From contig NZ_CP033831.1 of assembly GCF_003812745.1 (NCBI RefSeq), forward strand, positions 310,001 through 374,000: a DNA stretch of 64,000 nucleotides, read 5' to 3'. Position numbers and translations under genes: made by a program. Of this stretch, positions 1,671 through 30,415 are shown piece after piece (the first letter of the stretch is position 1; each line of letters opens with the position of its first letter). The notes under the pieces were generated by a model that was given only the letters and a program-made list of their open reading frames with translations, ran no database searches and was not told where the DNA came from. This stretch comes from Serratia sp. FDAARGOS_506. GTDB taxonomy: Bacteria > Pseudomonadota > Gammaproteobacteria > Enterobacterales > Enterobacteriaceae.

Positions 1671-2885
1671 TTAATGATGCGCCCATTCGATGCTGTTGAT
1701 GTCCACGCCCTGCTTGAACATCTCCCACAGCGGGGACAGATCGCGCAGACGGCCGATGGATTTACGCACCAGCTGAATGGTGTAGTCGATCTCTTCTTCC
1801 GTGGTGAAACGCCCCAAGGAGAAACGGATCGAGCTGTGCGCCAGTTCATCGCTCATGCCCAGCGCACGCAGCACGTAGGACGGCTCGAGGCTGGCGGAGG
1901 TACAGGCTGAACCGGAGGAAACGGCCAGGTCTTTCAGCGCCATGATCAGCGACTCGCCTTCAACGTAGTTGAAGCTGACGTTCAGGATGTTCGGTGCGCC
2001 GTGCTCCAGATCGCCGTTCAGATACACTTCTTCCATATCTTTCACGCCGTTCCACAGACGATCGCGCAGGGTGCGCAGACGTGCCATCTCTTCGGTCATC
2101 TCTTCTTTGGCGATGCGGTAAGCTTCGCCCATGCCGACGATCTGGTGGACTGGCAGGGTGCCGGAACGCATGCCGCGCTCGTGACCGCCGCCGTGTACCT
2201 GCGCTTCGATGCGGATACGCGGCTTGCGGCGCACGTACAGCGCGCCGATGCCTTTCGGGCCATAGATTTTGTGGCCGGAGAACGACATCAGGTCAACTTT
2301 CAGCTTGCTCAGATCGATAGGCAGTTTGCCCACGCTCTGGGTGGCGTCAACGTGGTAAATGATACCGCGCGCGCGGCACATTTCGCCGATCGCTTCGATA
2401 TCCTGCACCACGCCGATTTCGTTGTTGACGTGCATGATGGAGACCAGAATGGTGTCATCGCGCATCGCCGCTTCGAGATCCTGCAGGCTGATGATGCCGT
2501 TGCTCTGCGGCGCCAGGTAGGTCACTTCAAACCCTTCGCGCTCCAGCTGACGGCAAGTGTCCAGCACGGCTTTGTGTTCGGTTTTGCTGGTGATGATGTG
2601 CTTGCCTTTTTTCTGGTAGAAATTGGCAGCGCCTTTGATCGCCAGGTTGTCGGATTCGGTCGCCCCGGAGGTGAAGACGATTTCGCGTGGATCGGCGCCC
2701 ACCAGTTCGGCAATTTGGTTACGGGCGATGTCTACCGCCTCTTCCGCCTGCCAACCGAAACGGTGGGAACGGGAAGCCGGGTTGCCGAAAGTGCCGTCCA
2801 AGGTCAAAAACTGCATCATCTTCTCAGCAACGCGCGGGTCAACCGGCGTCGTTGCTGAGTAATCCAGATAAATCGGTAATTTCAT
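1671..2885 (-). CDS. iscS: IscS, cysteine desulfurase
   Basis: IscS is a PLP enzyme that converts cysteine to alanine and hands the sulfane sulfur to IscU, ThiI, TusA and others. At 404 residues it has the normal length. The PLP-lysine lies in [10 protein letters not shown] (about residue 206), and the active-site cysteine lies in the mobile loop [10 protein letters not shown] (about residue 328). The first residues [17 protein letters not shown] match the family. It is the second gene of the isc operon, 54 bases after iscR. Confidence 0.98.
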
Positions 2886-2939
2886 TGCTCTTGTGCTCCG
2901 TACATCACTTCCAAAAACTAAAATAATTTCGCCAGCTGC

Positions 2940-3434
2940 TTATGCGCGCAGATTAACGTTGATAGTTTCTTGCGGACGACCGTTGGCCGTGCGGCGCGTA
3001 TCGTTGTTTTGACGATCCGCGACCATCAGCACTTCCTGGTTGTTGACCAGTTCAGCCAGCGTAATGTTGTTCAGGAACCCGCTGATGCGCTCGCTCAGAT
3101 CGCGCCACAGGGCATGGGTCAAGCAGCGATCGCCGCCCTGACAGCCTTCTTTGCCCTGGCAACGGGTTGCATCTACCGATTCATCGACGGCAGTGATGAC
3201 AGCGCCAACGGCGATCTCACCCGCGTCTTTACCCAGCAGATAACCACCGCCCGGTCCACGCACGCTGGCCACCAGGCCATTCTTGCGCAGACGGGAGAAT
3301 AATTGTTCCAGATAAGAGAGCGAAATACCCTGGCGTTCGGAAATGTCCGCCAGTGGCACCGGCCCTTCCTGGGAATGCAGCGCTACGTCGAGCATAGCGG
3401 TTACGGCATAACGGCCTTTGGATGTCAGTCTCAT
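2940..3434 (-). CDS. iscR: IscR, Fe-S-sensing transcriptional regulator
   Basis: IscR is an Rrf2-family DNA-binding protein that represses isc when it holds a [2Fe-2S] cluster. The N-terminal winged helix starts [20 protein letters not shown]. The ligand cysteines appear in the spaced set [13 protein letters not shown] (residues about 92-104), with the conserved histidine soon after in THALW. The 164-residue length is normal. It is the first gene of the operon, preceded by two IscR-like sites, consistent with autoregulation. Confidence 0.98.
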
Positions 3435-12542: not shown

Positions 12543-12549
12543 TGCTTGC

Positions 12550-12588
12550 GGAGCGCGGCCCTCAAGCCGCGCTCCATACTCATTTTTC
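12550..12588 (+). terminator. Terminator after hmp
   Basis: GGAGCGCGG (12550-12558) pairs with CCGCGCTCC (12567-12575), and a T-rich stretch follows (TTTTT at 12583-12587). It overlaps the 3' end of the convergent cytochrome gene. Confidence 0.75.
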
Positions 12589-13764
12589 CTGGAGTTTGCG
12601 CGCGTCCTGCACCTGCTGCACCGTCACCGGCGCCGCCTGGTTGCCCCAGCTTCCCCGCAGATAACTCATCAGATCCGCCGCTTGCCGATCGTTCAACGCC
12701 CAGCCATAAGCCGGCATATCGAACGCCATAGCGTGCTGCGTGGCCGGAGTATGCGCCCCTTCCAGCACCACCCGCAGCGCGGTCAGCGGATTGTCCGCCG
12801 TTACCGTGGCATTGCCCGCCAGCGCCGGAATGGCGAAATCGGTGCCTTCGCCCTTGTTGCCGTGGCAGGTCGAGCAGTACATCGCATAGGTCGCCTGGCC
12901 GCCCGGATTATTCGCCTGCACGGCAGGCGCTGCGGCTACGGCGGCGGTGTCCGGCGCCAGGCTGCGCAGGTACACCGCGATGGCGTTCAGATCGCCGTCG
13001 CTGAGGTACTGCGTGCTGTGGGTCACCACCTCGCTCATCGGCCCGGCGACCGCCGCATGGCGGCTGCGGCCGGTTTTCAGCAGCGCCGTCACCTCTTCCG
13101 GCGCCAGGCCGCGCAGATTGGAGGCGTACCAGCCGTCCAGCTCGGCGCCGCTCAGGAACACCGGCTCCTTACCGTCCAGCCCCTTCTCCTGCATCGCCCA
13201 GCCGCGCGGCGTGTGGCAGCTGCCGCAATGGCCCGCGCCCTGAACCAGGTAGGCGCCGCGGTTCCACTCGGCGCTTTGCTGCGGATCCGCCTGATACGGC
13301 TGGTCGTCGTGGAACAGCTGGTTCCACACCGCCAGCGGCCAGCGCATCGACAGCGGCCAGCTGATGTCGCTGTCACGGTTGGCGACGTTCTGCGCCGGCA
13401 CCTCATTCATCAGATAGTCATACAGCGCGCGCATGTCTTCCGCGCTCATTTTGGCGTACGAGGTGTACGGCATCGCCGGGTAGAGCCGGTGGCCGTCTTT
13501 GGCCACCCCCTGGCGCATGGCGCGGTCAAACTCCTCGAACGAGTAGGCGCCGATACCGTGCAGCTTGTCGGGCGTGATGTTGGTGGCGTAGATAGCCCCG
13601 AGCGGTGTCGGGAACTTCATGCCTCCCGCCAATTCAGCGCCGCCCGGCGCGGTATGGCAGGCGGTGCAGTCGCCGGCTTTGGCGACGTATTCCCCGGCCG
13701 ACATCGCCTGGGCCGAACCAGCGGCCGCCAACAGGCTCAACAGGTACAGCGAACGCAAACTCAT
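12580..13764 (-). CDS. Tri-haem cytochrome c, likely electron acceptor of spermidine dehydrogenase
   Basis: The 394-residue protein has a signal peptide (MSLRSLYLLSLLAAAGSAQA) and three c-type haem motifs: CTACH (33-37), CGSCH (180-184) and CSTCH (297-301). This three-domain layout is that of the cytochrome subunits of membrane alcohol/aldehyde dehydrogenases, which pass electrons from a periplasmic dehydrogenase to quinone. Its ATG overlaps the spdH stop codon as ATGA (start at 13764), which indicates translational coupling. The role as partner of SpdH is inferred from that coupling. Confidence 0.85.
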   Translation of the reverse strand: MSLRSLYLLSLLAAAGSAQAMSAGEYVAKAGDCTACHTAPGGAELAGGMKFPTPLGAIYATNITPDKLHGIGAYSFEEFDRAMRQGVAKDGHRLYPAMPYTSYAKMSAEDMRALYDYLMNEVPAQNVANRDSDISWPLSMRWPLAVWNQLFHDDQPYQADPQQSAEWNRGAYLVQGAGHCGSCHTPRGWAMQEKGLDGKEPVFLSGAELDGWYASNLRGLAPEEVTALLKTGRSRHAAVAGPMSEVVTHSTQYLSDGDLNAIAVYLRSLAPDTAAVAAAPAVQANNPGGQATYAMYCSTCHGNKGEGTDFAIPALAGNATVTADNPLTALRVVLEGAHTPATQHAMAFDMPAYGWALNDRQAADLMSYLRGSWGNQAAPVTVQQVQDARKLQEK

Positions 13765-15671
13765 GCTCCCTCCTTGGCGGCAAGCTTGCCGTAGGCCAGT
13801 TCGTTCACCGCACGCCACGCCTGATCGATCGCCGAGTTGGCGTACGGGCTCCAGTCGGAATCGGAGTTGGCGATAACGATCTTGCCGATCGGCTGCCGCG
13901 CCGTTTCGATGATTTTCTTGGCTTCTTCTTCGTCGTCAAACAGCCCGTTGAGGAAGTAGGAATAACCGTGCGACCAGCGGTTAACAGTGATCGCCTGAAT
14001 ATCGCGCTGATGGTCGAAACCCGCCTCGCCCAGCATGCCCTGCAGCTGTTCGCGGATCATCTGCTCATGCACCTCGAACGGCGTGCCCAGCAGCAGCGCG
14101 CGCCCTTTGCGCGACTGCTCGCGCGGGCTGAGGCCGCTGCCCGGCAGCGTCGGCACATAGACCATATGCAGGCCGATTGGCCGCTCCGGATCGCGCGGGT
14201 GCTGATACCCACCCATGCTCACCGGGTAGTCCAGCTTCACGCGGCTGTACGGCGCGGCCGGCGAATAAATTTCGTGCACGCCCAGCTTGATGAATGGCTG
14301 CCAGTTGCGGATCACCACCTTGCTGTACACCAGCGGCGCCTTGACGTTCTGCTTGAGCGCCTCCTGCTGCTCGTGCGACATCTCCGGCACCAGGTACGGG
14401 ATCATCATGTTGTAGCCGGCCATGACCACCTGCCCGGCGCGCACCTTGGTCATCTTCTCGCCGGTCATGTAGGTGACTTCCACCTTGTCGCCGACGTTAG
14501 CCGCGTGCAGCCCGGTGCTGTTCAAACGCAGCTTCACCGGCGATTCCGGCCGATCGAGCTGGCTGTAGTCGAATTTGGCCAGCACCACGTCATTCATGTC
14601 TTTGCCGGCTGGCGCCACCGCCGGGATCAGCTTGCGCACCATCAGGCGCGTCAGCGTGGCGTTGCCGTCCGGGAAGTGGAACACGTAAGGATCGTCGAGA
14701 TCCGCCTGCGACTCTTCGTCCAGCGGCGGCAGATTCATGCCGCCGAGGCCCGGCAGATCGCAGATGCGCGCATCGCTGCACGACGTGCCGTCGATGCCCA
14801 CCGCCTGGAAGTCGTTGGTGGTCTGTTGGAAATAACGGATAGCCAGCTCGCTCAGGCCCACTTTTTCACGCAGGAACTGGGTGTAGCTGTGGGTATCGAG
14901 CCATTCGACCTTCTGCTCCAGCGTCATCTCCGGCAGATAATCTTTCTCCACCGTATGCAGCGCGATCAGCGCCTGGCGATCGCTTTCCGGCAGCGGAAAA
15001 TCACCGATGAACGCTTCATAAGAGCGGCCGTTGAGGCGATCGCGCGGAATGTCGTCCGCCACCGTGCGGCCCGGATCGCCGCTCACCACCTTGTCGACGC
15101 CGAAGTTCTTGCGATCGAAGTAAACCCCGCGGCTCAGGTTCAGATCCGGGTAGAAGGTGGTGTCAAACGCCTGCTCCAGTTGGTCGATATCGACGCCGAG
15201 CTTGCGCAGCAGCCCCATCGCCACCGGGCTGAAGTTGGAGCGCGGCGACTGCAGCGATTCGCTGCCGCCGTAGCCGAGCAGCATGCCGTCGTCGGTGTTG
15301 AATTCGTTGCGCTTGGCGTGGCCGCCGAAGTCGTCATGGTTGTCGATCAGCAAAATGCGCTGCTGCTCGCCTTTCAACTGCTGCCAGAAACAGGCGGCCG
15401 CCAGCCCGCTGATGCCGGCGCCGACCACCACCAGATCGAACTCTTCAACGGCGGGTACGCTGCCGAAATCAAAGGTTTTACCGTCGCGCCCCAGTTGATG
15501 CGCATGCTCGAACGAGCCCGGATGGTTGCCCCGCAGCCCGGTCAACGCCGGCGGATAGTACAGGGTTTGATTGGCGGTTTGCGGCGACGCGCGCAAGATT
15601 TGCAGCGGCGTCAACCCGGCGGCAATGGTGATCGCCACCCCGTTGAGAAAATCGCGTCTGGTGATACCCAT
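13761..15671 (-). CDS. spdH: Spermidine dehydrogenase SpdH, Tat-exported FAD enzyme
   Basis: SpdH oxidises spermidine to 1,3-diaminopropane and 4-aminobutyraldehyde; a FAD- and haem-containing enzyme of this kind was purified from S. marcescens decades ago, and P. aeruginosa has a homologue. The 636-residue protein begins with a twin-arginine signal (TRRDFLNG, residues 4-11, then a hydrophobic stretch) and has the dinucleotide-binding motif VVVGAGISGLAA (81-92) followed by the FAD region DNHDDFGGHAKRNEF. The start at 15671 has GGAAG in front. Neighbours (cytochrome c, aminobutyraldehyde dehydrogenases, polyamine ABC importer) support polyamine specificity. Generic tools may call it only an NAD(P)-binding or FAD-dependent protein; substrate is inferred. 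Confidence 0.78.
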   Translation of the reverse strand: MGITRRDFLNGVAITIAAGLTPLQILRASPQTANQTLYYPPALTGLRGNHPGSFEHAHQLGRDGKTFDFGSVPAVEEFDLVVVGAGISGLAAACFWQQLKGEQQRILLIDNHDDFGGHAKRNEFNTDDGMLLGYGGSESLQSPRSNFSPVAMGLLRKLGVDIDQLEQAFDTTFYPDLNLSRGVYFDRKNFGVDKVVSGDPGRTVADDIPRDRLNGRSYEAFIGDFPLPESDRQALIALHTVEKDYLPEMTLEQKVEWLDTHSYTQFLREKVGLSELAIRYFQQTTNDFQAVGIDGTSCSDARICDLPGLGGMNLPPLDEESQADLDDPYVFHFPDGNATLTRLMVRKLIPAVAPAGKDMNDVVLAKFDYSQLDRPESPVKLRLNSTGLHAANVGDKVEVTYMTGEKMTKVRAGQVVMAGYNMMIPYLVPEMSHEQQEALKQNVKAPLVYSKVVIRNWQPFIKLGVHEIYSPAAPYSRVKLDYPVSMGGYQHPRDPERPIGLHMVYVPTLPGSGLSPREQSRKGRALLLGTPFEVHEQMIREQLQGMLGEAGFDHQRDIQAITVNRWSHGYSYFLNGLFDDEEEAKKIIETARQPIGKIVIANSDSDWSPYANSAIDQAWRAVNELAYGKLAAKEGA

Positions 15672-15751
15672 ATAGGCTTCCTTTTTTATTATCATCGGCC
15701 GGCCGAGGCCGGCCCGAAGGCCGCGCTATTGTGCGGATAATTATTGTAAAA

Positions 15752-17176
15752 TCAATGTTTGAACATCACATGACGAATGGCGGTGTAATCCTCCAGCCCG
15801 TACATCGACATATCCTTGCCGTAGCCGGACAGTTTTTGGCCGCCGTGCGGCATTTCGCTCACCAGCATGAAGTGGGTGTTCACCCAGGTGCAGCCGTATT
15901 GCAGGCGGGCGCTTAAGCGATGCGCGCGGCCCACGTCGCGGGTCCACACGGACGACGCCAGCCCGTAGTTGGATTCGTTCGCCCAGGCCAGCACCTGCTC
16001 TTCGTCGTCGAACGCCGTCACCGTCACCACCGGGCCGAACACTTCGCGCTGCACGATCTCATCCTCCTGGCGCGCACCGGCCAGCAGCGTCGGCTGGAAA
16101 TAGTAACCCGGCCCTTTTACCTTCTCGCCGCCGGTCACCACTTGCACGTGCGGCAACGCTTTGGCGCGCTCGACAAAACCGGCGACCCGCTCCAGATGCT
16201 GGGCGGTAATCAACGGCCCCAGCTCGGTACTCTCGTCGTCCGGCGCGCCGATCTTCAGGCTGGCCACCGCCTCGCCCAGGCGTTTCACCAACTCGGGATA
16301 AATGTTTTTCTGCGCGTAGATGCGACAGGCGGCGGTGCAATCCTGCCCGGCGTTGTAGAAACCGAAGCCGCGAATGCCATCGACCACCTGCTGCAGGTCG
16401 GCATCATCGAACACCAGCACCGGCGCCTTGCCGCCCAGCTCCATATGAGTGCGCTTAATGCCGGCGGCGGTGTGGGCGATGATGTGCTCGCCGGTGGCGA
16501 TAGAGCCGGTCAGCGACACCATGCGCACCTTGTCATGCCCGGTCAACCGATCGCCGACGCTGGCGCCACGGCCGAACAGCACGTTGAGCACGCCCGGCGG
16601 GAACAGTCCGGCAGCCAGTTCGGCCAGTTTAAAGGTGGTCAGCGGCGTCTGCTCCGAAGGCTTGATCACCACGCAGTTGCCTGCCGCCAGCGCCGGCGCC
16701 AGTTTCCAGGCCGCCATCATCAGCGGGTAGTTCCACGGCGCGATCGAGGCCACCACGCCGAGCGGATCGCGGCGGATCATCGAGGTATGCCCGGCCAGAT
16801 ACTCACCGGCAGCCATGCCGGTCAGGCAGCGGCTGGCCCCGGCGAAGAAGCGAAACACGTCGGCCACCGCCGGCAGTTCGTCGTTCAACACGCAGTGATA
16901 AGGTTTGCCGCAGTTGAGCGACTCCAGCCTGGCGAAGGTCTCGGCATGCTCGTCGATCAGATCCGCCAGCTTGAGCAGATGTTCGGCGCGCTCCTTCGGC
17001 GTGGTTTGCCCCCAGGCGGCAAACGCGGCGTCCGCCGCCAGCACCGCGCGGTCGACCTGCTCCGGGCTGGCCTCCGCCACCTGCGCGATCACTTCGCCGG
17101 TCGCCGGGTTATACACCGGCTGGGTCACGCCCTGGCCGTTCACCAGTTGGCCGTCAATCAACAGTTGGCTTTGCAT
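15752..17176 (-). CDS. patD: PatD, gamma-aminobutyraldehyde dehydrogenase
   Basis: PatD (YdcW/Prr) oxidises 4-aminobutyraldehyde to GABA with NAD+ in the cytoplasm. At 474 residues it is the same length as the E. coli enzyme and similar along its whole length, including the start (M-x4-I-x-GxLVxGxG) and the end (YxxIRHVMxKH). The catalytic glutamate lies in HMELGGKAP and the nucleophile cysteine in [11 protein letters not shown]. It sits between the ABC transporter genes and spdH, whose product is its expected substrate. Confidence 0.93.
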
Positions 17177-17211
17177 AGGGTTATCCTTTTATCAGAGATC
17201 GGGTAAGGAAA

Positions 17212-18018
17212 TTATTTACCGCTGCCGGCGACGCTTTCCCCACCTTTGGTCAGGTAGTAAGCGCCGAGTATCGGCAGCATGGTCAGCAGCATCACCGACA
17301 GCGCCACCACGTTGGTGATCGGCACGTCGCGCGGGCGACCGAGCTGGTTCAGCAGCCACAGCGGCAGCGTGCGCTCGTGGCCGGCGGTAAAGGTGGTCAC
17401 GATGATTTCGTCGAACGACAGCGCGAACGCCAGCATGCCCCCGGCCAGCAGCGCCGAGCCGAGGTTCGGCAAGATCACGTAACGGAAGGTTTGCCAGCCG
17501 TCGGCGCCGAGATCCATCGACGCTTCGATCAGGCTGTACGAGGTGCGGCGGAACCGGGCGATGACGTTGTTGAACACGATCACCACGCAGAACGTCGCAT
17601 GGCCGACGACGATAGTCAGGATGCCCGGCTCGATGTTCAGCGCCTTGAACGCCGCCAGCAGCGCCAGACCGGTGACGATCCCCGGCAGCGCGATCGGCAG
17701 CAGCAACAGCAGAGAAATGCTGTCCTTGCCGAAGAAATCGCGCCGATACAGCGCCGCCGCAGCCAAGGTGCCAAGCACCAGCGCGATGGCGGTCGCCAGG
17801 CAGGCGATCTGCGCCGACAGCAGCACCGCATCGATGATGTCCTGCCGCCCGGCGGCGACGTTGAACCAGTGCAGCGTGAAGCCCTTCGGCGGGAAGCTGA
17901 AGGCGGCATCCTCGGTGTTGAAGGCGTAGATGGCGATGATCGCCAACGGGAAATGCAGGAAGACAAGTCCGCCCCAGGCGGCCAGCTTCAGCCCTAAGGG
18001 CGCGCGTTCAGAGTGCAT
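17212..18018 (-). CDS. ydcV: YdcV-like ABC transporter permease
   Basis: This 268-residue inner-membrane permease is of the PotC/YdcV type, with about six helices and the permease loop [23 protein letters not shown] that contacts the ATPase. It overlaps ydcU by eleven bases, so the two permeases are translationally coupled. In E. coli ydcSTUV lies beside patD, and the same linkage is seen here. The substrate is likely a polyamine or a breakdown product, inferred from neighbours. Confidence 0.88.
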
Positions 18019-18952
18019 CGAAAGCCCCCAGACGTTTGACGATGGAAAGATAGATGGCGATCAGGACGATCGGCACCAGCGTAAAGGCCGCGGCCATCGG
18101 CATATTGCCGATCGCGCCCTGCTGGGCGTACACCATGCTGCCGATGAAATAGCCCGGCGGCCCCACCAGCTGCGGCACAATAAAGTCGCCCAGCGTCAGC
18201 GAGAAGGTGAAGATCGACCCGGCGGCGATGCCCGGCACCGCCAGCGGCAAAATGACGTGGCGGAAGGTCTGCGCCGGTCGCGCGCCCAGATCCGCCGAGG
18301 CATGCAGCAACGAAGGCGGCAGGCGCTCCAGCGCCGCCTGGATCGGCAGGATCATGAACGGCAGCCAGATATAGACGAATACCAAAAAACGCCCCAGTCC
18401 CGAGGTCGACAGCGTGTTGCCGCCCACGCCTGGCACCATCAGCAGCGAGGCCAACAGCGACTCCAGCCCCAGGTGCTGCAGAAACCACTGCGCCACGCCG
18501 TCTTTCGCCAGCAGCAGGGTCCAGGCATAGGCTTTGACGATATAACTGGCCCACATCGGCATCATTACGGCGATGTAAAAGAACGCTTTAACGCGGCCGC
18601 TGGTGTAGCGCGCCATGTAATAGGCGATCGGGAACGCCAGCGCCGCGCTGGCCAGCGACACCAGCACCGCCATGGTCAGCGTGCGCAGGATGATGTCGTA
18701 GTTGGCCGGGTTGAACAGCGCCACAAGGTTGGCGAAGGTCAGATCCGGCGTCACCGCCATGGTGAAATCGTCGAAGGTGTAAAACCCTTGCCACAACAGC
18801 GTCAGCAGCGAACCGAGGTACACCGCGCCGAACCACAGCAGCGGCGGCACCAGCAGCAAAAGCAGATACAGCGTCGGCCGGCGATAGAGCCAGGTCGACA
18901 GCGCGCGCACGCTACCGCCGCGCGTCGAGGGGGAATCGATGCTCATGTCCAT
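18008..18952 (-). CDS. ydcU: YdcU-like ABC transporter permease
   Basis: The partner permease of PotB/YdcU type has 314 residues, with an N-terminal helix near residues 28-50 and the coupling loop [22 protein letters not shown]. The first ATG (18952) lies one base after the ydcT stop; a second ATG at 18946 is better spaced from GAGGTG, so the true start may be two codons in. It forms the membrane channel together with YdcV. Confidence 0.88.
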
Positions 18953-18953
18953 C

Positions 18954-19982
18954 TCACCTCTCCTCCAGCAGCGGTACCATCGCCGCGCGCGGCCAGCAGG
19001 CGACGATCGGCTGGCCGATCTGCCGCTGTTGCCCTTCGGCGATCCACTGCGGATTGGCCTGACTGACCAGCAGCTTTTCGCCGCCGTTCAGCGCGATTTC
19101 ATAACGCGTGGCCGCGCCCTGGTAATGGATTTCCTGCAGCGTGCCCTGCACCTGGATCTCGTCCTGCGCCGCGCCGCCCTGCTCCAACAGGCGGATATGC
19201 TCCGGCCGGATCGAGAAGGTCCGGCTTTCACCGAGCAGACGCTGCGCCAGTTCGCTGCGCACCACGTTGGAGGTGCCGACGAACTCGGCGACGAACGGCG
19301 TCTTCGGCCGCATGTAAAGCTCGCGCGGCGTATCCACCTGTTCTATGCGGCCGTTATTGAACACCGCCACCCGATCGGACATCGACAGCGCTTCGCTTTG
19401 ATCGTGGGTGACGAAGATAAAGGTGATGCCCAACTGGCGCTGCAGCTTCTTCAGCTCGCCCTGCATCTGCTCGCGCAGCTTGAGATCCAGCGCGCCGAGC
19501 GGTTCGTCCAGCAGCAGCACCCGTGGCCGATTGACCAGCGCGCGCGCCAACGCCACGCGCTGACGCTGGCCACCCGACAGATGCGCCGGCTTGCGTTCGG
19601 CAACGAAACCGAGCGCCACACTCTCCAGCGCCTCTTGCGCCCGCGCCAGCCGCTCACGCTTGGCGACGCCCTTCACCATCAGGCCGTAGGCGACGTTTTC
19701 CAGCACCGACATGTGCGGGAACAGCGCGTAATCCTGAAACACCGTATTCACGTCACGCTGATACGGTGGCAGGTTGGCGGCTTCCTGGCCGTGGATGCGA
19801 ATCGAGCCGGAAGTGAGCTGTTCAAAGCCGGCGATCAGGCGCAGGCAGGTGGTTTTGCCCGAGCCGGATGGCCCGAGCATGGAGAAAAATTCCCCGTCCT
19901 GAATGTCGATGGATACCCGATCCACGGCGCGAACATCGCCGAAAGTCCGCGAAACATCGATGAATTGCACGGCAATGGTCAT
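18954..19982 (-). CDS. ydcT: YdcT-like ABC transporter ATPase
   Basis: The ATPase of the polyamine-type importer has 342 residues. Walker A is GPSGSGKTT (about 38-46), the signature is LSGGQRQRVALARAL, Walker B is RVLLLDEPLGALD, followed by the switch histidine in FVTHDQSEALSMSDR. The C-terminal third is a TOBE-like regulatory domain. It is related to PotA/YdcT and lies between the binding-protein gene and the two permease genes. Confidence 0.9.
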   Translation of the reverse strand: MTIAVQFIDVSRTFGDVRAVDRVSIDIQDGEFFSMLGPSGSGKTTCLRLIAGFEQLTSGSIRIHGQEAANLPPYQRDVNTVFQDYALFPHMSVLENVAYGLMVKGVAKRERLARAQEALESVALGFVAERKPAHLSGGQRQRVALARALVNRPRVLLLDEPLGALDLKLREQMQGELKKLQRQLGITFIFVTHDQSEALSMSDRVAVFNNGRIEQVDTPRELYMRPKTPFVAEFVGTSNVVRSELAQRLLGESRTFSIRPEHIRLLEQGGAAQDEIQVQGTLQEIHYQGAATRYEIALNGGEKLLVSQANPQWIAEGQQRQIGQPIVACWPRAAMVPLLEER

Positions 19983-20035
19983 TTTCTGTGCTCCATACTG
20001 ATGTAGTTCGGGCGCAGCGGGCTGCGCCCCGCGGC

Positions 20036-21190
20036 TTAGCGGCCGCCCATGATGGCGATGTAATCCTGGGTCCAGCGGCTGTACGGCACGAACTTGCCGG
20101 CCTGTGCCTGCGGCGTTTTCCAGAAGGCGATTTTGTCGAACTGGTTGAAACCGTTGGTTTCGCAGCCCTTCTCACCCAACAGCGCGCTGGCCTTGCAGCC
20201 CGCCGGTGAAGCCGGCACCGATCCGAACCAGGCCGCTACGTCGCCCTGCACCTTCGGCTCCAGCGACCAGTTCATCCACTGGTAGGCGCAGCTCGGGTGC
20301 TTGGCGTCGGTATGCAGCATGGTGGTGTCCGCCCAGCCGGTCACGCCCTCTTTCGGGAACACGGTGGCGATCGGCTGCCCCTCGCCCTTCAGGGCGTTGG
20401 CCTGATACGGCCAAGCGCTGGAGGCCACCACGCCTTCGTTTTTGAAGTCGCTCATCTGCACCGAGGTGTCGTGCCAGTAGCGGTGAATCAGCGCGTGCTG
20501 GCTGCGCAGCAGTTTCAGCGCCGCCTGATACTGCTCTTCGTTGAGCTGGTAAGGATCGCTGATGCCGAGCTGCGGCTGGGTGGCCTTCAAGAACAGCGCC
20601 GCGTCGGCGATGTAGATCGGGCCGTCGTAAGCCTGCACCCGGCCCTGGTTACTCTTGCCGTCCGGCAGGTTCTGCTGCTGGAAGATCACCGCCCAGCTGT
20701 CCGGCGGCGTCGGGAAGGTTTTGGTGTTGTACATCAGCAGGTTCGGCCCCCACTGGTACGGCGTGCCGTAGGTTTTGCCGTCCACGGTGTACCAGGCACC
20801 GTTCAGCAGGCGCGGATCGATGTTCTTCCAGTTAGGGATCAGCGCGGTGTTGATCGGCTGCACCCGCTTGCCGAAGATCAAACGCAGCGAGGCGTCGCCG
20901 GAGGCGGTCACCAGATCGTAGCCGCCCTTGGCCATCAGGCTGACCATTTCATCGGAGGTCGCGGCGGTCTTCACGTTCACCGCGCAGCCGGTTTGCTTTT
21001 CAAACTGGGTGACCCAGTCGTAGTTTTTGTCGGACTGGCCGCGTTCGATGTAGCCGGGCCAGGCGATGATATCCAACCGGCCCTCGCCTTTGCCCAGAGA
21101 CTGCGGCAGATCGGCCGCCTGGGCCAGGCCGCACAGCACGGTGAGACAGAGCGCGGAGACGGTGGTGGTGACTGCGGTAGTTTTTCTCAT
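20036..21190 (-). CDS. ydcS: YdcS-like periplasmic substrate-binding protein
   Basis: The 384-residue protein starts with a Sec signal peptide ending near GLAQAADLP and continues as a PotD/YdcS-type family 1 binding protein (IIAWPGYIERG is typical of this group). It would capture the ligand for the ydcTUV transporter. It is 53 bases upstream of ydcT and 73 bases downstream of the second aldehyde dehydrogenase gene. Ligand identity is not readable from sequence; putrescine or spermidine is inferred from context. Confidence 0.88.
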   Translation of the reverse strand: MRKTTAVTTTVSALCLTVLCGLAQAADLPQSLGKGEGRLDIIAWPGYIERGQSDKNYDWVTQFEKQTGCAVNVKTAATSDEMVSLMAKGGYDLVTASGDASLRLIFGKRVQPINTALIPNWKNIDPRLLNGAWYTVDGKTYGTPYQWGPNLLMYNTKTFPTPPDSWAVIFQQQNLPDGKSNQGRVQAYDGPIYIADAALFLKATQPQLGISDPYQLNEEQYQAALKLLRSQHALIHRYWHDTSVQMSDFKNEGVVASSAWPYQANALKGEGQPIATVFPKEGVTGWADTTMLHTDAKHPSCAYQWMNWSLEPKVQGDVAAWFGSVPASPAGCKASALLGEKGCETNGFNQFDKIAFWKTPQAQAGKFVPYSRWTQDYIAIMGGR

Positions 21191-21263
21191 CGTAATTACC
21201 CCTGTGTTGCGTATCTGTGTGCGGCAGGGAACGGCTGCCGCCTGATTTTGCTTTATAGAACCG

Positions 21264-22727
21264 CTAGAAGCTGGCTTTGAACTTCGCCATTACGTGCCTG
21301 ACAACGCTGTAATCCTGCAGCGAATCGCTGGACAGATCCTTGCCGTAGCCGGAGCGTTTCAGGCCGCCGTGCGGCATCTCGCTCGCCAAGGTGAAATGGG
21401 TGTTGATCCAGGTGCTGCCGTACTGCAGATGGGCAGCAATGTGCAACGCCCGGTCGATATTTTGCGTCCACACCGACGAAGCCAGGCCGTATTCCGAGTC
21501 GTTGGCCCACTCAACCGCCTGCTCCAACTGCTCGAAGCGCGTGACGCTGACCACCGGGCCAAACACCTCGCGCTGCACGATTTCGTCGCTTTGCAGGCAG
21601 CCCGCCAGCAGGGTCGGCTGGTAGTAAAACCCAGGCCCGGAGTGGGCCGCGGCGCCGGTGATCAATTCGATATGCGGTTGGCTGAGCGCCCGCTCGACAA
21701 AGCTGGCGACGCGATCGCGCTGGCGGGCACTTATCAACGGGCCGATCTCGTTATCCTGATCGCGCTTGCGGGCGAAGCGCAGGCTGGCAACCGCCTCACC
21801 CAACGCATCCACCAGTTTGGGGTAGATGCCCGCCTGCGCGTAGATACGGCAGGCGGCGGTGCAGTCCTGGCCGGCGTTGTAATAACCGTAGGTGCGAATG
21901 CCGTTAACCACCTCGTCGAGATCGGCGTCGTCGCAGACGATCACCGGCGCCTTGCCCCCCAGCTCCAGGTGGGTGCGCTTGACGCTTTTGGCCGCCGCCT
22001 GAAGAATTTTTTGCCCGGTGACGATATCGCCGGTGACCGACACCAGCCGCACCTGCGGGTGCCCCACCAGCTGGCTGCCGACCCCTTCCCCGCCGCCGTA
22101 GACGATATTCAGCACGCCCGGCGGCAGGATCTCCTGCAGCGCCGGCACCAGCGCCAGAATGGTCAGCGGCGTATGCTCGGACGGTTTGAACACCACGGTA
22201 TTGCCCGCCGCCAACGCCGGCGCAATCTTCCACGCCGCCATCATCAGCGGATAGTTCCAGGGGGCGATCGAGGCCACCACGCCGATCGGATCGCGGCGGA
22301 TCATCGAGGTGTGGCCCGGCACATACTCGCCGGCCAGCTGCCCTTGCTGCGTGCGCACCGCGCCGGCGAAGAAGCGGAACACGTCGACCGCCGCCGGCAG
22401 ATCGTCATTGAGCGCCTGATGCAGCGGTTTACCGCAGTTGAGGGCTTCCAGCTGTGCCAGCTGCGGCGCCTGCCGCTCAATGGCGTCGGCGATGCGCAGC
22501 AACAGAGCGGCGCGCTGGGCCGGCGTGGTGCGCGACCAGTGGCCGAACGCCTGCTGCGCGGCTTTTACCGCGCCGCCGACCTGCGCCGACGAGGCTTCGG
22601 TAAGGGCGATCAGCGTCTCACCGTTGGCCGGATTGACGATGCACTCCTGCTGGCCTTCGCCGTCGATAAGCTGACCGTTAATGAACTGCTGACAGGACAA
22701 ACCCGAGAGAACCTGCACATCTGCCAT
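21264..22727 (-). CDS. Second aminoaldehyde dehydrogenase (PatD paralogue)
   Basis: This 487-residue NAD-type aldehyde dehydrogenase is a paralogue of the PatD encoded in the same block. The catalytic glutamate is in [10 protein letters not shown] and the cysteine in [11 protein letters not shown]. The two share long stretches such as TSMIRRDP and [18 protein letters not shown]. It may act on 4-aminobutyraldehyde as well or on 3-aminopropionaldehyde, which would arise from 1,3-diaminopropane, the other SpdH product. That division is a hypothesis. It is the first structural gene after the LysR regulator. Confidence 0.85.
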
Positions 22728-22842
22728 CGCCTGACGCCCCTAAGTGACAAAAACGTTAACTAAATGTGAATAAGTTAGTTTTAATCAGCCTAAGCGAGCC
22801 TCTGGCGGGCAACAAATTCTAAATACTGAACGCCGCGTTCGA

Positions 22843-23766
22843 TTAAATCGAATGCTTAAGCCCGGCGGCGTGTTTGCTGCCGTTCTCGCGCGCGATGGTA
22901 AGGAACGGCGTCACCAGCTCAGGCCGTGCGCTGCCGCGCCGCCACGCCAACCCGATATCCAGCGGCTCCAGCAGATCGTCCAGCTTGCGCGCCTCAATCA
23001 TGTTGCCCTCAAGCGACCAGGCGCGGTACGCCATGTCCGGTTGGATGGAGACCCCCATCCCCGCCGCCACCAGGCTGCGCACCGCCTCGGTCGAGGCGGT
23101 CTTCATGGCGATCTCCGGCTTCAGCCCGGCGCGCGACCAGATGCGCCGCGCGTGCACGTCCATTTCATCGGCGTTGAGCTGGATCAGCGGCTGTTTGGCC
23201 ACGTCCGCCAGGCTGATGCTCTCGTGTTCCAGCAGCGGGTGCAGCGGCGGCAGCCACAGGCGATACGGCGAATGCATCAGCACCTCGGTCTGCAGCGCGT
23301 CGCGGTCTTCGATGTTCGACAGGATCAGCACGCCGATGTCGATCTCGCCGCTGACCAGCAGATGCTCGATATACGGGCGCTCGTCCTCAACCACCTGCAC
23401 GGTGACGTTGGGATAAGCCGATTTAAAGCGCGTGAGCAGCTCCACCAGAAAGTAGCCGGCCACCAGGCTGGTGACGCCGACGGTCAGCTTGCCGGTCAGG
23501 CTTTCGGTGCCGATCTGCAGGCTGCGCTTGGCGTTGTCCACCGTCGCCAGGATCAAATACGACTGGCGCAGGAACTGATGCCCCTGATGGGTCAGCGTCA
23601 TGCCCTTGGCATGGCGATCGAACAGCCGTACGCCGATCTCGGTTTCCAACTGCTGGATCGCCAGCGTCAGCGAAGACTGGGAGACAAACACCGCCTGGGC
23701 GCCGGCGGAGATCGACCCGGTTTCCGCCACGGCGATGAAGTGGCGGATTTGGCGTAACGTCATCAT
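22843..23766 (-). CDS. LysR-family regulator of the polyamine block (probable)
   Basis: A 307-residue LysR-type regulator: the N-terminal helix-turn-helix (LRQIRHFIAVAETGSISAGAQAVFVSQ region) is followed by a periplasmic-binding-protein-like effector domain. Three in-frame ATGs (23772, 23766, 23763) are possible; I favour 23766 because it is best spaced from AAAGG. It faces the same way as the downstream catabolic genes, 115 bases before the first aldehyde dehydrogenase, so it could be part of the transcript or act on the internal promoter. An ERIC repeat ends exactly at its start region. Confidence 0.85.
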   Translation of the reverse strand: MMTLRQIRHFIAVAETGSISAGAQAVFVSQSSLTLAIQQLETEIGVRLFDRHAKGMTLTHQGHQFLRQSYLILATVDNAKRSLQIGTESLTGKLTVGVTSLVAGYFLVELLTRFKSAYPNVTVQVVEDERPYIEHLLVSGEIDIGVLILSNIEDRDALQTEVLMHSPYRLWLPPLHPLLEHESISLADVAKQPLIQLNADEMDVHARRIWSRAGLKPEIAMKTASTEAVRSLVAAGMGVSIQPDMAYRAWSLEGNMIEARKLDDLLEPLDIGLAWRRGSARPELVTPFLTIARENGSKHAAGLKHSI

Positions 23767-23887
23767 CCCCATCGCCTTTCAAGCCGCTGCGTTGTTGTCT
23801 GCGTGCGCTTACCCCAGTCACTTACTTGAGTAAGCTCCTGGGGATGCACGCCCTTGCCGCCTAGCCGCAACTTGAAATTCATTGGGG
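23767..23887. repeat. ERIC intergenic repeat
   Basis: The 121-bp element contains CCCCAGTCACTTACT and AGTAAGCTCCTGGGGATG back to back, the diagnostic core of the enterobacterial repetitive intergenic consensus, and has complementary ends (CCCC...TTTCAAG at the left, CTTGAAATT...GGGG at the right). The left end overlaps the possible first start codon of the LysR gene and supplies its AAAGG ribosome-binding sequence on the minus strand. Confidence 0.92.
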
Positions 23888-24045
23888 ATCACCTCAATCA
23901 AGATAGTTAGATTGATTGTAGATCCCGCGAGAAAAGCGATCGGGAAAAGTATCAAAAACGCGATAGCGTTCGCTTTTTTAGAATGCCTACAGGCAAAAAT
24001 GGGGAGAACAGTGTGGCGAAGAAGTGCGATGTGTGGGGGACAAAA

Positions 24046-24072
24046 ATGACAAGGGCGCAGCACGCTGCGCCC
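24046..24072 (-). terminator. Terminator of nadE-glnB
   Basis: On the minus strand GGGCGCAG, loop, CTGCGCCC is followed by TTGTCATTTTTG. The 325-bp stretch 23773-24097 otherwise holds the ERIC repeat and a 43-bp imperfect inverted repeat (GGGATC...GATCCC, 23885-23927) with no gene. Confidence 0.8.
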
Positions 24073-24097
24073 TGATGGCCGAAGTTCTTGCGGAGGA

Positions 24098-30204: not shown

Positions 30205-30415
30205 GTAAGTATCCAGGATTGATGAACCCTTCATCACAGTTGGATACAGGCGGTGCCTCACTCCACGTGTCGCCCGATGCTTGATAAAGCCGTTTGCACG
30301 GTCTGTTATCGGTTTGGTTGGACGATAGGCACCATTTCTTTGGCATCATTCGGAGGCTTATGAGGCGATTTGCCGTCTAATTACGGCGCCGTCATAAAAA
30401 GGTGAATGAGCAACC
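30205..30415 (-). ncRNA. glmY: GlmY small RNA
   Basis: GlmY is an RNA decoy for RapZ that protects GlmZ and thereby raises GlmS synthesis. The predicted 5' end (minus strand, near 30415) reads GGTTGCTCATTCACC, closely matching the start of E. coli GlmY (GCTCATTCACC), and GAGTGAGGCACC occurs near the 3' part as in GlmY/GlmZ. A nested hairpin follows (GTATCCA/TGGATAC, 30209-30247, enclosing TGATGAA/TTCATCA) but without a clear U-tract, so the exact 3' end is uncertain. Position between purL and glrK and the promoter architecture support the call. Confidence 0.85.

Follow-up and report, generated by a model that had tools for sequence, protein, structure and literature searches.

A nine-gene block of Serratia predicted to serve the respiratory use of spermidine and spermine

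The window analysed here, 64,000 nucleotides of Serratia sp. FDAARGOS_506 (RefSeq assembly GCF_003812745.1, contig NZ_CP033831.1, positions 310,001 to 374,000; all coordinates are those of the window), carries nine co-directed open reading frames (ORFs) on the minus strand at 12580-23766, in the order lysR, ald2, ydcS, ydcT, ydcU, ydcV, patD, spdH and cyc according to its ORF listing, which together probably form a LysR-controlled unit for the respiratory use of spermidine and spermine. Once exported by the twin-arginine translocation (Tat) pathway, SpdH would cleave periplasmic spermidine into 1,3-diaminopropane and 4-aminobutanal/1-pyrroline, and spermine into spermidine and 3-aminopropanal, as reported for SpdH of Pseudomonas aeruginosa in passages of PMC9397018. 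Electrons would flow from flavin adenine dinucleotide (FAD) through haem b (His66/His576) and the three c haems of Cyc, probably to the quinone pool. YdcSTUV would import a product, perhaps an aminoaldehyde, and PatD and Ald2 would oxidise aminoaldehydes to 4-aminobutyrate (GABA) or beta-alanine, which the GABA transaminase/SSADH and AptA/MMSDH pairs encoded elsewhere in the genome could process further. A preliminary description of the same DNA had presented the block as a complete spermidine/putrescine catabolic unit; the unit, SpdH and the dehydrogenases stand, but the E. coli putrescine route does not, as PatA is missing, and polyamine import has become doubtful. Added here are a separate cytochrome partner for SpdH, a promoter footprint, a deletion in S. 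inhibens, a counterpart in Pseudomonas, the finding that PatA is absent and a doubt concerning the ligand of YdcS. The genes are as follows.

22843..23766, minus strand: lysR, LysR-type regulator (Pfam HTH_1 and LysR_substrate)
21264..22727, minus strand: ald2, second aminobutyraldehyde-type dehydrogenase (family model score, catalytic motifs)
20036..21190, minus strand: ydcS, periplasmic substrate-binding protein (801.7 bits to equivalog NF041888, above its cut-off of 725)
18954..19982, minus strand: ydcT, ATP-binding cassette (ABC) ATPase (TIGR01187, 361.2, cut-off 355.6)
18008..18952, minus strand: ydcU, ABC permease (family models/Pfam)
17212..18018, minus strand: ydcV, ABC permease (family models/Pfam)
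15752..17176, minus strand: patD, aminobutyraldehyde dehydrogenase (955.2 bits to equivalog TIGR03374, above its cut-off of 909.3)
13761..15671, minus strand: spdH, predicted Tat-exported spermidine dehydrogenase with FAD and haem b (the long ORF extends to 15695)
12580..13764, minus strand: cyc, periplasmic tri-haem cytochrome c (start codon overlapping the spdH stop)

Layout and conservation of the block

The block is flanked by glnB/nadE on one side and by a convergent hmp, then glyA, on the other. All nine ORFs indeed lie on the same strand, and the intergenic distances stay within the 115 bases initially given (lysR-ald2 115, ald2-ydcS 73, ydcS-ydcT 53, ydcT-ydcU 1, ydcV-patD 35 and, with the corrected spdH start, patD-spdH 80), whereas the 'several overlaps' come down to two, of 11 bases between ydcU and ydcV and 4 bases between spdH and cyc. 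SpdH was found in 26 of the 30 Serratia genomes searched and YdcS, at ≥95% identity, in 25; the four genomes with neither measure 1.5-3.6 Mb. All 25 genomes with both proteins carry the nine genes in order, so that the co-oriented unit and its conservation across Serratia, for which a homology search had been proposed, hold in 25/26 SpdH-bearing genomes, which excludes a chance arrangement. In one genome (G403), the block is spread over two contigs, with SpdH split across the contig ends.

In S. inhibens, spdH-cyc stands alone at the same site, preceded by a patD stub (L053:9762-9923) that corresponds to PatD residues 421-474 at 68.5% identity; lysR, ydcS, ydcT, ydcU and ydcV have no match in this locus, and Ald2 matches only the stub. 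Since the stub remains, the module of seven genes from lysR to patD was deleted in S. inhibens while SpdH-Cyc stayed. Three Erwinia loci likewise have spdH-cyc at the same glnB-hmp site, and in a Rahnella-like genome (SpdH 97.6% identical to that of R. rivi) the seven-gene module and spdH-cyc are on different contigs. Insertion of the module at the SpdH-Cyc site in Serratia was also considered but is not shown by these loci, S. inhibens representing a deletion and the Erwinia gaps holding no remnant by eye.

An additional in-frame ATG for lysR occurs at 23772, and a dispersed repeat with 23 matches in the genome, its own copy included, is located just upstream of the gene, at 23777-23895. Repeat-like inserts are present in gaps of the nine-gene block in other Serratia, and the glnB-lysR gap of Serratia sp. 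Ag1 (L058) spans 1104 bases and contains an extra ORF with a Fic-like motif, as seen by eye.

SpdH and its cytochrome partner

SpdH matches P. aeruginosa SpdH (PDB 7D9F; Che et al., 2022) end to end, with 816.7 bits and residues 9-633 aligned on 1-619, and shares with it an FAD motif, a Tat-type motif (TRRDFLN) and both haem b histidines. The identification of a Tat-exported FAD dehydrogenase is thus borne out, albeit with its start moved from 15695 to 15671 (codon 9 of the long ORF), the most likely position because relatives align from that methionine and AAGGAAG precedes it. In P. aeruginosa SpdH, haem b is bound by His54 and His562, according to passages of PMC12564564; these residues align with His66 and His576 of the Serratia protein, and both positions are His in 61/61 aligned SpdH rows. 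From this likeness, we infer that Serratia SpdH cleaves spermidine. Its identity to SpdH of S. bockelmannii, rounded by the tool, is 100%, and the genome therefore belongs to a Serratia of the S. marcescens group. That another amine, for example one linked to local secondary metabolism, should be the substrate is highly improbable: a partial match to the model of the prodigiosin enzyme PigB (46.2 bits, cut-off 850) would speak for it, yet it covers only the FAD-binding stretch, whereas the SpdH match runs end to end and aminobutyraldehyde dehydrogenases adjoin the gene.

An FAD- and haem-containing spermidine dehydrogenase was reportedly purified from S. marcescens by Tabor and Kellogg in 1970. 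The haem of this preparation need not be that of the tri-haem protein, since SpdH keeps both haem b ligands and the purified enzyme accordingly needs no c-type haem. The present analysis offers this enzyme a probable gene and a probable partner for electron transfer, along with a promoter and a pathway downstream of it.

Because both haem b ligands reside in SpdH itself, Cyc is predicted to be a separate partner, additional to it. Cyc has three CXXCH motifs, scores 316.9 bits against the beta subunit of a glucose dehydrogenase and is collinear over ≥370 residues with the likewise tri-haem subunits of fructose, glucose and alcohol dehydrogenases (PDB 7W2J, 8HDD, 8GY2), from which it differs in that its partner is SpdH, a haem protein in its own right. 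P. aeruginosa differs in turn: the spdH of Serratia is followed by the cytochrome gene, whereas the Pseudomonas SpdH lineage in the tree has none. Among the fetched SpdH loci, the best 80 of at least 546 confirmed relatives, cyc follows spdH in 34; at L033, L078, L081 and L082 Cyc is present although a strict distance rule misses it. The 4-base overlap seen in the window recurs in many relatives. The distances of SpdH and Cyc are correlated over 34 pairs (r 0.91, a value inflated by kinship; the largest of 1000 permutations gave 0.28), and the pairs include Commensalibacter, an alphaproteobacterium whose SpdH falls among the gammaproteobacterial ones in the tree. As for the acceptor after Cyc, a CcmF/NrfE-type protein is encoded in the genome and ccoN was not found there (aa3-type oxidases were not searched), which makes quinone the likelier one, and the electrons probably enter the quinone pool.

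Neither a cytochrome partner of SpdH nor the whole nine-gene block is described in the open-access titles, abstract openings and passages covered, which does not establish their absence from print; the Cyc partner and the whole arrangement look undescribed, the single parts being of known kinds.

Several occurrences of SpdH outside the groups discussed here may be recorded. A 571-kb plasmid of Duffyella gerundensis (L207:8001-11103) encodes SpdH followed by an annotated cytochrome c, and three Duffyella plasmid records match; acidobacterial contigs L117, L122 and L125 carry SpdH-like genes in tandem; and an unverified, unannotated record named 'Pseudomonas phage Y1' (L206/H15), possibly bacterial DNA and not used, contains an SpdH-like gene of 57.9% identity.

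Promoter footprint and transcript architecture

The preliminary description read the block as one operon or two linked operons; a conserved promoter-like footprint was found ahead of ald2. This footprint and the hairpins and terminator-like site of the region are listed below.

22787..22842, minus strand: promoter footprint, comprising a 27-bp operator-like element (22816-22842), a -35 box TTGTTG (22810-22815), a 17-nt spacer and a -10 box TAGGCT (22787-22792)
15697..15714, minus strand: hairpin between patD and spdH (script search, fold z -1.83)
12543..12579, minus strand: strong hairpin between the convergent cyc and hmp (12-bp stem, z -4.15, no clear T run)
24052..24073, minus strand: terminator-like site between glnB and lysR (9-bp stem, T-rich tail, fold z -1.48)

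Comparison of 19 Serratia with 14 Pseudomonas distinct lysR-ald2 gaps gives 86.1% identity over the 27-bp element, and comparison of Serratia with the single Rahnella gap 75.4%. The element is followed by TTGTYG, then by a 17-nt spacer that is only 25.6% identical between Serratia and Pseudomonas, and by a TANNNT hexamer that is 92.0% identical between them. This hexamer stands at exactly 17 nt, and at no other offset from 12 to 23, in 34/34 distinct gaps of Serratia, Rahnella and Pseudomonas, although these gaps are not independent. Conserved boxes flanking a free spacer are what promoters leave, and the footprint thus points to a LysR-controlled promoter ahead of ald2 with a predicted start near 22780; LysR would be the putative binder of the gap. 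LysR itself has a mean identity of 73.7% to its Pseudomonas counterpart and 82.9% to that of Rahnella. The footprint pattern has one exact match in the genome; a wider LysR regulon was considered and dropped, the sole other genome match having three mismatches and the control count also being one.

Whether spdH-cyc is read from this promoter alone bears on the unity of the block. A -10-like CACAATA precedes spdH in many of the Serratia sequences shown and in Mixta, and TTGACA-17-ACAATA precedes it in two Erwinia loci devoid of the module, all as seen by eye; an older spdH promoter may therefore persist, and the promoter-like box may split the unit. It is accordingly possible, though we hold it for the lesser prospect, that lysR/ald2-ydcSTUV-patD and spdH-cyc form two linked operons, the latter with its own promoter, an arrangement with which the hairpin in the patD-spdH gap would also agree; this hairpin was recovered by the script in 29/32 Serratia sequences, both arms of the stem showing changes. 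However, by eye the window has no good -35 box there, no promoter before spdH appears in the consensus scan, the gap is short and the hairpin lacks a T run; RNA fold z-scores were weak for four of the five stretches folded.

Aldehyde oxidation, import and wider distribution

An aldehyde dehydrogenase and PatD had been announced for the block, and both Ald2 and PatD exceed the cut-off of the aminobutyraldehyde subfamily NF010000, being the only 2 of 23 aldehyde dehydrogenase (ALDH)-like matches in the genome to do so. Ald2 is 61% identical to PatD, has the catalytic-type residues Cys289 and Glu255 and scores 785.9 with the NF010000/PRK13473 subfamily model (cut-off 615) and 743.8 with TIGR03374, below its equivalog cut-off; it would, like PatD, act on aminoaldehydes. 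The five genes ydcSTUV-patD occur in the same order in the E. coli-type locus, recovered from 10 fetched Enterobacteriaceae-like genomes with no lysR, ald2, spdH or cyc match adjoining, but PatA, the putrescine aminotransferase that partners PatD in E. coli, is absent from all 30 Serratia genomes (0/30, the E. coli control being positive). Seven proteins of the genome match the PatA model, namely ArgD, AstC, GABA transaminase, Dat, BioA, AptA and HemL; GABA transaminase adjoins SSADH, AptA adjoins an MMSDH-family dehydrogenase and Dat adjoins a DABA-decarboxylase-like protein scoring below the cut-off of its model. Serratia thus has its dedicated aminoaldehyde dehydrogenases next to SpdH but, with PatA absent, lacks the supply of aldehyde known from E. 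coli. Of the proposed oxidation onward to GABA, the continuation through GABA transaminase and SSADH is encoded, but the E. coli putrescine route is not its context. AptA or other routes to the aldehyde, such as Puu, may contribute; Puu and other putrescine routes were not searched.

YdcS gives 746.4 bits to PDB 6NLP and is related to PotF and to SpuD/SpuE-type chains. According to passages of PMC8666671, PotF binds putrescine with S38, D39 and D247 on the proximal side, with an aromatic box and with distal residues, E185 and D278 among them; the variant PotF_Prox, altered at S38, D39 and D247, no longer bound putrescine. In YdcS, the aromatic box and D278 persist (W44, W260, W286 and D288, each in 59/59 sequences), but the protein has G at the position of D39 in 59/59, Y, H or A at that of E185 and never an acidic residue at that of D247; of the four PotF carboxylates D39, D247, E185 and D278, only the last is thus retained, which departs from the PotF/PotD type. 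An aspartate of its own, D99, is invariant (59/59) and aligns with PotF S87. These alignments, at ~31% identity, were made against three near-identical Serratia PotF sequences without coordinates and are not proof; they suggest a pocket that fits a one-amine ligand better than a diamine, and render doubtful the polyamine importer of the preliminary description.

Should SpdH act in the periplasm, the aldehyde that it forms has to enter the cell, and we infer that the importer is the natural candidate for this uptake. We consider it tentatively, as a rather doubtful possibility, that SpdH and Cyc form a new four-haem respiratory complex (haem b of SpdH and three c haems of Cyc) that oxidises periplasmic polyamines, with YdcSTUV importing the resulting aminoaldehyde/1-pyrroline; were aldehyde import true, the annotation of YdcSTUV in enterobacteria and pseudomonads would need changing. 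Somewhat better placed, if still short of an even chance, is an ordinary polyamine/diamine importer for putrescine, 1,3-diaminopropane or spermidine, with SpdH-Cyc and the cytoplasmic dehydrogenases as parallel branches under one regulator. YdcSTUV is listed among putrescine importers in passages of PMC8674398 and called a putative importer in those of PMC10936423, and the kinship of YdcS with PotF and with SpuD/SpuE-type chains and the conserved aromatic box and D278 agree with such a role, whereas the lost acidic positions, the behaviour of PotF_Prox and the absence of PatA do not. The substrate of YdcSTUV thereby becomes a short binding question.

The association of SpdH with the module extends beyond Serratia. 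In 14/17 fetched Pseudomonas loci, lysR-ald2-ydcSTUV-patD lies ahead of spdH; the remaining three comprise L069 (Cyc, no module), L084 (neither) and L088 (cut by a contig end). The 14 share the seven-gene module and the promoter footprint with Serratia but lack the cytochrome gene. In some Pseudomonas loci, patD and spdH are separated by a gene of the amino acid permease type. In the SpdH tree, built, like those of Cyc and YdcSTUV-PatD, by a quick method with Shimodaira-Hasegawa-like approximate likelihood ratio (SH-aLRT) support only, Serratia is nested among Cyc-bearing rows, apart from the module-bearing Pseudomonas rows. Between Serratia and Pseudomonas, SpdH has a mean identity of 59.9% but the module genes reach 73-82%, which at first resembled a swap. 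Such separate histories of SpdH and module were set aside, given that SpdH divergence is ~1.5x and 1.7x that of the module within the two genera and 1.7x between them, so that the difference does not speak for them; a single ancestral union followed by losses would fit, as would two independent SpdH-module unions.

Across 394 genomes that the tool assigns to the order, which are not independent (SpdH at ≥60% identity, YdcS at E 1e-80 or better, Fisher test), YdcS occurs in 13/14 genomes with SpdH against 22/380 others (by genus, 6/7 against 6/108; 13/16 when two genomes with a 44%-identical SpdH are counted). At Citrobacter loci L072-L075, cyc comes after spdH, as in Serratia, an arrangement that could explain membrane binding, but their neighbours, like those of SpdH-Cyc in Buttiauxella, are different: another ALDH, an amino acid permease-like protein, a SnoaL-like protein and an aminotransferase. 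An aldehyde dehydrogenase and a transporter thus recur as neighbours of SpdH.

Several observations weigh against a single polyamine-respiring unit. S. inhibens has spdH-cyc without importer, Ald2 and PatD, so the periplasmic step can stand alone; conversely, 22/35 YdcS-bearing genomes have no SpdH, and YdcSTUV cannot depend on it. Cyc is missing from 46/80 of the fetched SpdH loci; Aeromonas diversa (L066) is without it inside a Cyc-bearing group. Cyc also lacks the C-terminal 45-58 residues of its closest solved relatives, which leaves membrane docking unexplained. At the promoter, the -10 identity to Rahnella (62.3%) does not exceed that at adjacent offsets, and the sigma-70 scan, whose sites were no more numerous than in shuffles, did not list the footprint. 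The S. inhibens and Erwinia loci, where spdH-cyc occupies the glnB-hmp site in the absence of the module, and the grouping of Cyc with cytochrome subunits of periplasmic dehydrogenases would also suit a stand-alone periplasmic oxidation system serving energy capture or polyamine removal, comparable to the incomplete oxidation of acetic acid bacteria, with neighbours that share the site by chance. We regard this as unlikely in view of the nine genes kept together in Serratia, the same module ahead of a different SpdH lineage in Pseudomonas and the ALDH and permease-like neighbours in Citrobacter and Buttiauxella, and favour the LysR-controlled unit.

Among the minor observations, a hydrophobic C-terminal tail was noticed by eye in 1 of 35 Cyc rows, that of L070 (Neisseriaceae), where it resembles a membrane anchor. 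An amino acid permease-like gene (cluster 8) recurs near spdH at L086, L087, L088 and L090 and at L071-L075, L077, L079, L080 and L091. Elsewhere in the window, Rfam matches correspond to GlmY (30247-30415), rncO (47584-47763) and the IscS-1 thermometer model (2857-3039).

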